The position numbers and the translations under genes are program-made. From Methanoculleus frigidifontis (GTDB lineage Archaea > Halobacteriota > Methanomicrobia > Methanomicrobiales > Methanoculleaceae), in assembly GCF_030464345.1 (NCBI RefSeq), contig NZ_VCYH01000005.1, positions 124,001 through 188,000 of the forward strand: a stretch of DNA of 64,000 nt. Direction: 5' to 3'. The notes beneath the pieces are model-generated. The model ran no database searches. It was given only the letters and a program-made list of their open reading frames with translations, and was not told the origin of the DNA. The number at the start of each line of letters is the position of its first letter. Within the stretch, counting starts at the first letter, position 1. Positions 22,412 through 57,244 of this stretch are shown here, piece after piece.

Positions 22412-22612
22412 CTACCAGGTGATGCCAAAGAGCGGTTCTTCGTTGGTGAGGTTTGTCATCCTCCGTGCGACCGCCTGCATCGAGAGTTCTTCTCCGTCCC
22501 TGATTCTGTTCTGCATCGCCTCTATCGCGGCTTGTACTGCTTCATCCTTCGATCGCTCGCCCCGGACGGTCATTCTGACGGTCAGCGTCACGACCCACTC
22601 GGTGTCAGCCAT
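22412..22612 (-). CDS. Small hypothetical protein (66 aa)
   Basis: A 66-residue protein beginning MADTEWVVTLTVRMTVRG: a beta strand pair, then a helix (KDEAVQAAIEAMQNRI), then a final strand and turn. This beta-beta-alpha pattern is like small dodecin-type or phage-like domains but no family is certain. It reads leftward toward the decayed gene. Composition is good for a real gene despite its length. Confidence 0.55.
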   Translation of the reverse strand: MADTEWVVTLTVRMTVRGERSKDEAVQAAIEAMQNRIRDGEELSMQAVARRMTNLTNEEPLFGITW

Positions 22613-23291
22613 TGATTCCCCCCAAGGGTTCGCTGGCTACTGTACCCGGAGAGGTATAAATGCAGCTCATGTGTGCGGATCGACGGCATGTACACCGACT
22701 GCCCGGATTGCAGAGGGAGGAAGAGATCTTGCGCCGGCACCGCATCATATCCGGCGTTCCCGCCTCTCTGATGCCGGAAAAGGGGTAGTGCTCCAGCATA
22801 TACCTGATACTTGATCTCAGAGAATCCGACCGAATTACACTACCCGCCAACCCGCGTTCATGAAAAAAGAACATAGGGAGAAAATTTCCGTTATCGGGCT
22901 TTGGTGAAACTCTATTCCGGCCGTCATGCTTCCCTGACGGGATTGGTGCCGGACCTGGCCTGTTCCCAAAGTTCGGCCTTTTTTCTCACGCATGCCCTTA
23001 TGCCGTGAACCGTGGTGGCTATCGCCATGGGGGTGGCGCCGACGGGGAGGGGTCTGCCCCTCCCCTGTCTTACGCAAAGATCCGCATACTTCACCCGCCC
23101 CCAGGGGCGGGGGCAGTCATGGCGATACCCAATGGAAAGCCGTGCCCCGGGGTGCAATCAATCGGGAACGCCCGGATGCGATCTCAACAAAGGTAGTATC
23201 ATTTGTTTCGTAGGGCACTACCGGAAAAGGAGACGGGCAGGAACCCCCCGCCTGCAGAGTTAAAAGTGTGCTGAAAATATCGCGTGAGATG
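22613..23291. other. Gene-poor stretch with nested inverted repeats
   Basis: About 680 bases without a supported gene; a 42-codon frame at 22660-22788 has a ribosome-like GGAGAGGT but no other support. At 23020-23127 TATCGCCATG and CATGGCGATA form 10-bp outer arms around two inner inverted repeats: GGGGAGGGG/CCCCTCCCC (23044-23065) and CCCGCCCC/GGGGCGGG (23094-23111). This layout could fold as a three-way junction. It may be a structured RNA, a small mobile element or overlapping terminators. Confidence 0.5.
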
Positions 23292-23468
23292 TTACTTCAT
23301 CGCTTTGCGTATCTTCTCCTGGGTCTCCGGCTGCTGGACGTCCATCTGGTGCATGGTCTGGACATGCCCCTCGATACGCTTCATCAGTTCATTCTCGCCC
23401 TCTGCTTTCTCTTCATACTCGCACTCGAGGCCGAGGTCTTTGCACCGGAATGTCTTCACCTCTTTCAT
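23292..23468 (-). CDS. DUF1059 small protein
   Basis: A 58-residue protein matching the DUF1059 pattern: FRCKDLGLECEYEEKA, a helix ENELMKRIEGHVQTMH with conserved His residues, and a short tail. Two Cys and two His are placed as if for a metal site. Function is unknown. ATG 23468 (MKEVKTF) is preferred because GGTGAAGACG precedes it; an upstream GTG at 23477 would add three residues. Confidence 0.82.
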   Translation of the reverse strand: MKEVKTFRCKDLGLECEYEEKAEGENELMKRIEGHVQTMHQMDVQQPETQEKIRKAMK

Positions 23469-23638
23469 CGTCTTCACCGGTCGGTTGGATATACTGGGAA
23501 TAATATATAATTATTGATGATAGATCCCTCTCCGGGTGCTCCGGGACAGATCCGCAGAGTTCACGACGGCACCGCCTATCCGGTGATCCGGGTTGGCCGG
23601 TTACCTTCAATACCCAGGCCCGCGGATACTGCGGTGAA

Positions 23639-55415: not shown

Positions 55416-56147
55416 ATGCTGGATATCAGGGATTTGTCGGTGCGCGTGGAAGATCGGGAGGTGCTCCACGGCATCAACCTTCAGATAGGGGGGGGAGAGA
55501 CGCACGTCCTCATGGGGCCGAACGGCTCCGGGAAGAGCTCGCTCCTCATGACGATCATGGGATTCGGGAACTATTCCGTAACCAGCGGTTCAATACTTTT
55601 TAAGGGAACCGACATCACGCAGATGCCGATTCACGAACGGGCGGAGCTCGGCATCGGAATGCTCTTCCAGCGGCCTCCGGCGATCGCCGGACTGAAGCTC
55701 GGAAAACTGCTCACCGCCACGTCGCAGCTCGGCGGAGAGGCCGTTGAGGCACTGGCGCAGTCGGTCAATATGGAGGACTTTTTAACCCGGGATATCAACG
55801 TCGGCTTCTCCGGCGGTGAGATCAAGCGGAGCGAGGTGCTCCAGCTGAAAGTGCAGCAGCCCGAGTTCATCATGCTCGACGAGCCGGAGAGCGGCGTCGA
55901 CCTCGAGAACATGGCGCTGATGGGCCGCGAGGTTGCACACCTTCTCGAGAAAGACGTCCACATCATCGACCGCCACCGGAGCGGGCTCATCATCACGCAT
56001 ACCGGGTACATCCTGGACTACGTGGACGCCGACCAGGGGCACGTGATGATCGACGGGCAGATCCGCTGCCATGGCAACCCCCGTGAAATCCTGAAAGTCG
56101 TTCAGGAAAAAGGCTACAAGGAGTGTCTCAGGTGCAAACAGATGTGA
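55416..56147 (+). CDS. sufC: Fe-S assembly ATPase SufC
   Basis: A 243-residue ABC-type ATPase of the SUF iron-sulfur assembly scaffold. Walker A is GPNGSGKSS, the signature is FSGGEIKRSE, and Walker B is MLDEPESGVD, whose Glu-Ser-Gly is typical of SufC. The C-terminus ends GYKECLRCKQM with a Cys pair. It overlaps sufB by 25 bases. Two-gene sufCB operons are common in methanogens, which have high Fe-S demand. Confidence 0.95.
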   Translation: MLDIRDLSVRVEDREVLHGINLQIGGGETHVLMGPNGSGKSSLLMTIMGFGNYSVTSGSILFKGTDITQMPIHERAELGIGMLFQRPPAIAGLKLGKLLTATSQLGGEAVEALAQSVNMEDFLTRDINVGFSGGEIKRSEVLQLKVQQPEFIMLDEPESGVDLENMALMGREVAHLLEKDVHIIDRHRSGLIITHTGYILDYVDADQGHVMIDGQIRCHGNPREILKVVQEKGYKECLRCKQM

Positions 56148-57244
56148 ACGAGCTCGAACAGCTCAGCCAGAAGGATAAGGAACGGCTCGCCCTGACCGGC
56201 CTCGACCTCGAGATGACGAACCGCTGCGGCAGTTTCTTCCAGATCGACCAGGATGTCGTACATACCTCGTGTGCGGCAGAGGGGATCGAGATCCTGCCGA
56301 TCGCCGTCGCCCTCGAGAAGTACGACTGGGTGAGCGACTACTGCTGGAAGGCCGTCCCGAAGGATAAGGACAAGTATACCGAGTATGTCGCGAAGCAGGA
56401 GATGCCGCAGGGCGTCGTCGTCATCGCCCACGAGGGCGCCCGGTCCGAGACGCCGTTGCAGGCCTGCCTCTTTCTGCGCCAGGAAAAGGTCCAGCACGTT
56501 CACAACATCGTCATCGCCCGGGAAGGATCCGAGATCCACCTCATCTCCGGGTGCGCGAGTTCTGCGCAGAAGGAGCATGGGGCACACCTCGGCGTCACCG
56601 AGATCTACGTCGGGAAGAACGCCAAAGTGACCTCCACGATGATCCACAACTGGAGCCCGGGGATCAGCGTCTTTCCGCGGAGCATGGCGATCGTCGAGGA
56701 GGGCGGCATCTTCCTCTCGAATTACGTCTGCATGCAGCCGGTCAAGAAGATCCAGATGTATCCGACCGCCCGGCTCGCCGGGAAAGGCGCCGTCGGCAGA
56801 TTCAGCAGCATCGTCGTCGGGACGCCCGGCTCCCACCTCGACCTCGGGTCGCGTGCAATACTCGGGGCAGAGGGGACCAGCGCGGAACTGATCACCCGTG
56901 CCATCACCACCGGCGGCACCATCATCTCCCGCGGCCACGTCCTCGGCGAGACCGATAAGACCCGGGGGCATATCGAGTGCAAGGGTCTGATCCTCAAAGA
57001 CGGCATCATTCACGCCATCCCGGAGATCGAGGGTCACCTGACCGGGACCGAGCTCTCGCACGAGGCGGCGGTCGGCAAGATCGCCCGGCACGAGATCGAG
57101 TACCTCATGTCTCGCGGGCTCAACGAGGAGGAGGCGACCGCAACCATTATACGCGGGTTCCTTGATGTTAAGATCAGCGGCCTCCCCGAGGTCCTGCAGA
57201 AGCAGATCGACGACGCCATCGACAAGGCAGAATCAGGTTTCTGA
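56123..57244 (+). CDS. sufB: Fe-S cluster scaffold SufB/SufD family
   Basis: A 373-residue SufBD-fold protein with a long beta-helix and the conserved C-terminal SHEAAVGKIARHEIEYLMSRGLNEEEA (shortened: SHEAAVGK, YLMSRGLNEEEA). It accepts sulfur and iron on the SufC-bound scaffold. GTG 56123 lies within sufC. Only one SufB/D paralogue is present, so it would work as a homodimer with SufC, as in archaea. Confidence 0.94.
   Translation: MSQVQTDVNELEQLSQKDKERLALTGLDLEMTNRCGSFFQIDQDVVHTSCAAEGIEILPIAVALEKYDWVSDYCWKAVPKDKDKYTEYVAKQEMPQGVVVIAHEGARSETPLQACLFLRQEKVQHVHNIVIAREGSEIHLISGCASSAQKEHGAHLGVTEIYVGKNAKVTSTMIHNWSPGISVFPRSMAIVEEGGIFLSNYVCMQPVKKIQMYPTARLAGKGAVGRFSSIVVGTPGSHLDLGSRAILGAEGTSAELITRAITTGGTIISRGHVLGETDKTRGHIECKGLILKDGIIHAIPEIEGHLTGTELSHEAAVGKIARHEIEYLMSRGLNEEEATATIIRGFLDVKISGLPEVLQKQIDDAIDKAESGF

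Follow-up and report, generated by a model that had tools for sequence, protein, structure and literature searches.

The boxB module of the pneumococcal BOX repeat (boxA-boxBn-boxC) has a size of 45 bp. BOX is a dispersed composite of Streptococcus pneumoniae in which two end modules stand around variable inner modules; the inner modules fold largely by themselves, and movement in trans has been proposed (PMC3049150). Prokaryotic and archaeal MITEs have terminal inverted repeats and target duplications, carry no genes, occur in many copies and form strong folds (PMC10969869), and they are usually AT-rich (PMC3049150, PMC10969869). REP/BIME palindromes are paired inverted hairpin units arranged in mosaic arrays (PMC3733652, PMC2817692), and the double-hairpin elements of mitochondrial DNA are likewise repeated elements that form hairpins (PMC2800124). 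The excerpted text of the archaeal MITE review names no Methanomicrobiales (PMC10969869), and that of the genome paper of M. bourgensis MAB1 mentions transposases and transposable elements and not the repeat reported here. Among the matches listed from the excerpted literature on Methanoculleus and methanogens, there was also no description of such a repeat.

We analysed a 64-kb stretch of DNA from Methanoculleus frigidifontis (hereafter the window), in which a first-pass annotation had noticed nested inverted repeats that might fold as a three-way junction. The finding is real, and its kind is explained: it is a nested MITE whose core is rich in hairpins rather than a demonstrated three-way-junction RNA. 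We consider it very probable that the stretch with three arms forms the core of a hairpin repeat, modular and dispersed, which arrived as the passenger of a nested MITE and which gains and loses cassettes in a BOX-like manner. As an analogy only, BOX is the nearest counterpart of the core, since in both the end modules are conserved and the hairpin modules between them vary in number. Unlike BOX, the inner cassettes of the core are double hairpins whose stems vary freely, its hosts are archaea, and it rides in several MITEs; the two are likened by anatomy alone and no sequence relation is claimed. The carrier in the window, E1, resembles other MITEs in its terminal inverted repeats, target duplications, lack of genes, high copy number and strong fold, but it is a nested composite with a GC-rich core that is common to carriers with different ends. 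The G+C content was 66% in the core and 56% in E1 (51% when the core was left out), compared with 61% in the window. The core shares with REP/BIME the paired inverted hairpin units and the mosaic arrays, but its units are longer, its carriers have target duplications, and there was no Y1_Tnp match in its own genome. Its resemblance to the mitochondrial elements is by description only.

A nested element at 22784-23222

When the coordinates were re-read in the sequence, the 10-base outer arms were found where the first-pass annotation had placed them, TATCGCCATG at 23020-23029 and CATGGCGATA at 23118-23127 on the plus strand, and both perfect GC-rich hairpins that it had described between them were present. 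The first hairpin, GGGGAGGGG-TCTG-CCCCTCCCC (23044-23065), is extended by GAC/GTC pairing to 23041-23069 (GACGGGGAGGGG-TCTG-CCCCTCCCCTGTC), and the second, CCCGCCCC-CA-GGGGCGGG (23094-23111), has 7 pairs when loops shorter than 3 are disallowed. Alignments and the covariance model R1 assign the first hairpin to a left unit at 22998-23070 (CCGTGG..TATCGCCATG..GGTGG.. followed by the hairpin), while the 3' arm is part of a right unit at about 23090-23148; a spacer (23071-23093) lies between the hairpins. A chance origin had been judged unlikely, and this was borne out by a search for 10-bp perfect inverted pairs with starts 40-140 nt apart that enclose at least two perfect hairpins with stems of at least 7. 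The nested arrangement was unique in the window, and only 1 of 60 first-order Markov shuffles contained any. The description of the stretch as free of genes needs qualification: mechanical ORFs do cross 23020-23127, though none of the seven ORFs tested (22419-23263) had a Pfam match. The flanking gene on the minus strand (23292-23477) encodes a DUF1059 protein (Pfam PF06348, E 3e-14).

A genome search for further copies had been proposed as a check, and it yielded tens of them in the host genome and in the family. The host genome (3.17 Mb in 30 contigs) contained 51 matching pieces to the 171-bp core region, several of which are parts of one copy. With a 661-base query, long matches started and stopped at or near 22784 and 23222 of the window. 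The stretch between these positions, on the plus strand, is E1, a composite non-autonomous element of 439 bp with full-length homology to dispersed copies in the same genome. Its terminal inverted repeats (GGTAGTGC.../...GCACTACC) were located by matching the end pattern: the left one, GGTAGTGCTCCAGCATATACCTGA, lies at 22784-22807, and the right one lies at 23199-23222 on the minus strand, its opposite strand reading GGTAGTGCCCTACGAAACAACTGA in most copies. The pattern (GGTAGTGCTCCAGCATATACCTGA plus GGTAGTGCCCTACGAAACAACTGA) had 30 matches in the host genome and none when it was read backwards. A perfect 8-bp target duplication, GGAAAAGG, flanks the window copy at 22776-22783 and 23223-23230. 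E1 is a MITE, being short, multicopy and transposase-free, with terminal inverted repeats and a target duplication. The earlier suggestion of a small element with terminal repeats was thus right as to its kind; the 10-base arms, however, lie inside the element, which runs from 22784 to 23222 and has other terminal repeats.

The host genome contained 21 copies of E1 with both ends, three further copies with one end missing (L026, L032, and L046) being excluded. The 8-bp duplication was perfect in 9 of the 21 and had at most one mismatch in 13, compared with 3 of 420 combinations of flanks taken from different copies; in the other 8 copies, the flanks differed at two or more of the eight positions. 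The length was 294-691 bp in 20 copies, and the 21st, L105, was enlarged to 3.68 kb by two different IS110-type transposase genes and has the duplication CGATCGCG. The two genes were seen at L105:818-3557 (C1:392817-395556 of the host genome), near the A1/A2 part boundary. The insertion of IS elements into palindromic repeats has been reported elsewhere (PMC1525189). In relatives, E1-like composites with perfect duplications were found at three loci (L334, L345, and L349), and an E1-type element at L130:898-1197 in genome G041 was without the hairpin core, as if the palindrome had been deleted. An empty-site comparison of one flank yielded no empty site; the 170 nt beside locus L137 are repeated or not shared in other genomes.

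The ends of E1 are those of E0, a MITE of 136-137 bp that is without the hairpin core. In the host genome, E0 was found at L121, where no clear duplication flanks it; its copies in other genera of the order have perfect 8-bp duplications (GAAAAATT at L353 and AAAAATCA at L358). It was also found nested in another element (L129/L338, duplication AAATTTTC). Its length was nearly constant across several genera of the order (L353, L358, L338, and L352, the last without a clear duplication). The E0 interior without an insert reads TTTCCATTATCAGTTG at L121, and its counterpart in E1 is CCGTTATC in the window and CCATTATC or CCAGTATC in other copies. The E0-related sequence in E1 is followed by about 300 bp beginning with GGGCTTTGGTGAAAC and ending with CTCAACAAAG, and then by AGTATCA. 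In the window, this inner, E3-like MITE occupies 22897-23194 on the plus strand (ends GGCTTTGGTGAAACTC / CTCAACAAAGGT); we inferred its exact ends, because the duplication that flanks it is imperfect, with 2-5 mismatches at the boundary used. Free E3 in relatives starts with GGCTCTGTTGAAACCC, ends with TTCAACAAAGCC and has perfect 8-bp duplications; such duplications were found at 9 places, 7 of them at least 279 bp in length. At six loci free of E0 (L136, L137, L097, L141, L144, and L160), E3 ends were found together with the left and right units and perfect duplications. The simplest reading of these sequences is that E3 would have been inserted in E0 and that the composite would have spread afterwards.

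A third carrier in the host genome, E2, holds the core between largely different flanks and has about 35 nt in common with E1. The E2 copies (L038-L055) have the ends ..AGCGCTACCC / GGTAGCGT.., and the outer flanks of several of them (L041, L047, and L054) look by eye like decayed inverted left units, as if an older copy had received E2 within its hairpin. Two MITEs of 97 and 207 bp (L153:1501-1597 and L159:1501-1707) were also seen, which have E3 ends and perfect 8-bp duplications and no core. And in genome G120, contigs end at E3-type ends.

Spread and pairing of the hairpin core

The core, which consists of left arm and hairpin, spacer, and hairpin and right arm, is wider in distribution than its carriers. 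The 260-nt flanks of 110 distinct cores were compared; these came nearly all from other genomes, with L105-L109 and L121 of the host genome included. Both E3 ends were present in 20 cores, only the left in 14 and only the right in 5, while both E1 ends were present in 3 and none of the tested ends in 64. At random places, both E3 ends were found in 3 of 749. Model R1, built on the left unit, had matches in 36 of 40 family genomes, with 51 in the host genome and up to 95 (G041); these counts are rough, since the calibration was short and at most 124 candidates were scored per genome. No R1 match was found in G001, the sole other genome of the same genus among the 40, and the 78 matches in G139 (best E 3e-7) may be partly chance. 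In a scan of named genomes, the matches listed (80 of at least 118 stretches) were all from Methanoculleus or from bins with no closer name than Methanomicrobiales or Euryarchaeota. Viral contigs had no exact match to the left-unit pattern, from which the window copy, too, departs. Other orders of the units (R-L, R-L-R, and repeated units) were seen at six loci (L085, L086, L087, L068, L216, and L218), and at L086 an apparent end of another element lies inside the first hairpin.

Pairing was scored at 9 pairs of the outer arm, 11 of the first hairpin and 9 of the second in an alignment of 59 cores, the window copy and 58 hand-chosen sequences from 86 other representatives (130-215 nt, thinned at 88% similarity). 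Standard pairs were found in 95.7% of the 1637 cells, compared with 53-63% when the arms were slid; the first hairpin was paired in 97.1% of its cells and the second in 94.9%. Both sides were changed in 11 of the 1637 cells (shuffled mean 6.7), and 7 of these 11 were at one pair. The covariation score was 0.062, compared with 0.057 for shuffled data, and RNAalifold found no pair changed on both sides in the 59 cores, with a covariation term of -0.11. Of the suggested structured RNA, the pairings are kept among the homologues, but almost solely as unchanged sequence, and these homologues had themselves been identified by their likeness to the arms. Beside the outer arm, positions -2 to -4, -6, -7, and -13 paired in 63-91% of 156 cores, and positions -1, -5, and -8 to -12 in 6-33%. 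Since the arms pair yet hardly vary, covariation, which had been named as a check of the fold, gave no support to a functional three-way junction of these arms. The conservation is mainly one of sequence, and as such it is neither proof of the fold nor evidence that excludes it.

In folding predictions, the 128-nt stretch was more stable than 200 of 200 shuffles on both strands (z -3.41 and -4.56). Only for the minus strand did both the minimum-energy and the centroid structure pair the outer arms with each other; for the plus strand, a local hairpin of the 5' arm is favoured. Rfam gave nothing at gathering score in the window (the best E in 22700-23300 was 0.79), and a tRNA search gave nothing.

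We think it improbable that the core functions as a structured RNA or a cis-acting RNA leader which was spread by MITEs and whose three-way fold is under selection. The conservation of the arms speaks for such an RNA. A top-base analysis was carried out on 77 cores anchored on exact TATCGCC and GGCGATA motifs, from which L105-L109 and L121 of the host genome had been removed. In the 49 cores without any of the tested carrier ends, the mean top-base frequency (20-nt bins) was 0.73-0.87 in the arms, compared with 0.40 in the spacer and 0.32-0.36 in the flanks beyond about 30-40 nt, but the arm values are partly built in, because the copies were found by arm similarity, many by exact pattern, and were anchored on TATCGCC/GGCGATA. 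Across 13 pairs of orthologues, differences were counted at 43 of 732 positions in the left arm, 61 of 593 in the right arm and 146 of 785 in the spacer, and at 560 of 2616 and 341 of 2944 positions in the flanks; this is modest evidence of constraint, because some flanks are not orthologous (L065 left and L245 right), and the right arm has changed almost as fast as the flank on its side. An optional spacer hairpin (GGCCtccGGCC/GCGCttcGCGC), which is absent from the window copy, does covary, with both sides changed in 24 of 201 cells compared with a shuffled mean of 5.7 and at most 2 in slid versions, and the stems of the cassettes vary while their pairing is retained. Replacement of whole hairpins could also cause the covariation of the spacer hairpin. 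Against the RNA stand the near lack of covariation in the two hairpins and the outer arms of the window, the poorly pairing positions beside the outer arm, the plus strand on which the three-way fold is not preferred, and the lack of an Rfam match.

Two further explanations appear very unlikely. A palindrome of the REP/BIME type, mobilised by a tyrosine transposase (RAYT), would account for two inverted hairpin units that have a common motif, are dispersed and also occur in the orders R-L and R-L-R. Membership in this class fails because the tyrosine transposase is missing: Y1_Tnp (PF01797) had no match in 33 of the 40 family genomes, the host genome among them, although R1 matched dozens of times in many of these. 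Terminal inverted repeats and 8-bp duplications of the carriers also speak against it. We give equally little credence to back-to-back transcription terminators of the neighbouring genes. Strong GC hairpins in an intergenic place are what such terminators would look like, but no T run follows either hairpin on either strand, and the copies stand at unrelated sites with target duplications. Moreover, a terminator scan of 22600-23400 gave a single site at 23236-23252, outside the element, where 0.9 were expected.

Hairpin cassettes and the proposed origin

The window copy is a minimal core without cassettes. Its spacer lacks the GGCCTCCGGCC-type hairpins and the double-hairpin cassettes that are found there in relatives. 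Cores at orthologous places were compared across genomes, and both flanks were 81-96% identical in nine clear pairs. The differences in core length were clean inserts at a few recurrent points, which follow CTGACGGGG, TAACCCC, the first spacer hairpin or GGCGATA. Inserts of at least 20 nt within the core at orthologous places were 44-49 nt in length in 8 of 12 cases. With 300 nt added on each side, L236 and L196 were 94.9% identical outside three inserts (49, 48, and 47 nt); the remaining inserts were 47, 46, 49, 44, 46, 52, 69, 79, and 24 nt, and the one of 24 nt is a single spacer hairpin. Many inserts are double-hairpin cassettes in which the stems vary and the pairing is kept, and a common form is hairpin-CTCNNNCTCC-hairpin-(A)TCG. 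Under a stricter cassette definition, the loci examined contained 93 distinct double-hairpin units with 22 first stems and 34 second stems, compared with 0, 3, and 1 units in three Markov shuffles. A loose cassette pattern gave 192 matches and 162 in the reversed sequence, which is not a valid control since reversal keeps hairpins. At L141, such hairpins on either side of the core have enlarged an element to 817 bp; its duplication, GATGCAAC, is perfect.

Several smaller observations were made on these hairpins. The spacers of 90 of 107 cores contained 67 perfect hairpins with a stem of at least 5, compared with a shuffled mean of 14 (largest 23). Read from the left to the right unit, the commonest spacer loops were C(TTC)G and C(TGC)G, and C(TTC)G is C(GAA)G on the opposite strand. 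The C(GAA)G loop is unusually stable in DNA. The loose cassette pattern also matched the window at 55525-55559 and 56818-56851; these matches are without a valid control and may be chance. A tentative idea, which we hold to be doubtful, is that the double-hairpin cassettes of about 46 nt in Methanoculleus genomes are an actively evolving mobile family that inserts at fixed points of palindromic host repeats. The process would give rise to new, perfectly paired stems, so that stems would be replaced wholesale with the pairing kept; dispersed structured loci would be rebuilt from modules within the time of species divergence, and the left and right arms would be retained as a docking and folding scaffold for it.

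Transposases of the types PF13610, PF12762, and PF01797 were searched for, and none was found in the host genome. Among the 40 family genomes, IS240 (PF13610) was matched in 1, IS1595 (PF12762) in 2 and Y1_Tnp (PF01797) in 7, and none of the 13 loci of these matches had a pair of E0 or E3 ends. The E0 end pattern was matched in 30 of 232 genomes. No autonomous element was present at the 30 E0-end loci or at the E3-end loci examined, which were MITEs or single ends only.

Most likely, E1 reached 22784 as a MITE by means of a transposase acting in trans. From the nested anatomy, we infer an order of events in which the 136-bp E0 would have acquired E3 of about 300 bp, with left unit, spacer and right unit in its interior. 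The resulting composite E1 (about 440 bp) would then have multiplied through the terminal repeats of E0. A transposase acting in trans, whose insertions produce 8-bp target duplications, would have moved it, and one copy would have landed at 22784 near the DUF1059 gene. The core in this scheme is made up of the conserved left and right ends, each with a GC-rich hairpin and an inverted TATCGCC/GGCGATA motif, around a spacer. The spacer gains and loses cassettes, either single hairpins of about 24 nt or, within inserts of 44-49 nt, double ones.

What was not expected is found beyond the studied coordinates: a family-wide modular repeat with cassettes that are not the same at orthologous places. 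An intergenic hairpin that recurs in this archaeal family is accounted for by a single modular repeat and its mobile carriers, and the orthologous loci let the gain and loss of hairpin modules be read directly. If the arms are transcribed, there would be tens of loci per genome with the same fold. And if the cassettes move on their own, an enzyme that moves hairpins of 46 nt would be of real interest.
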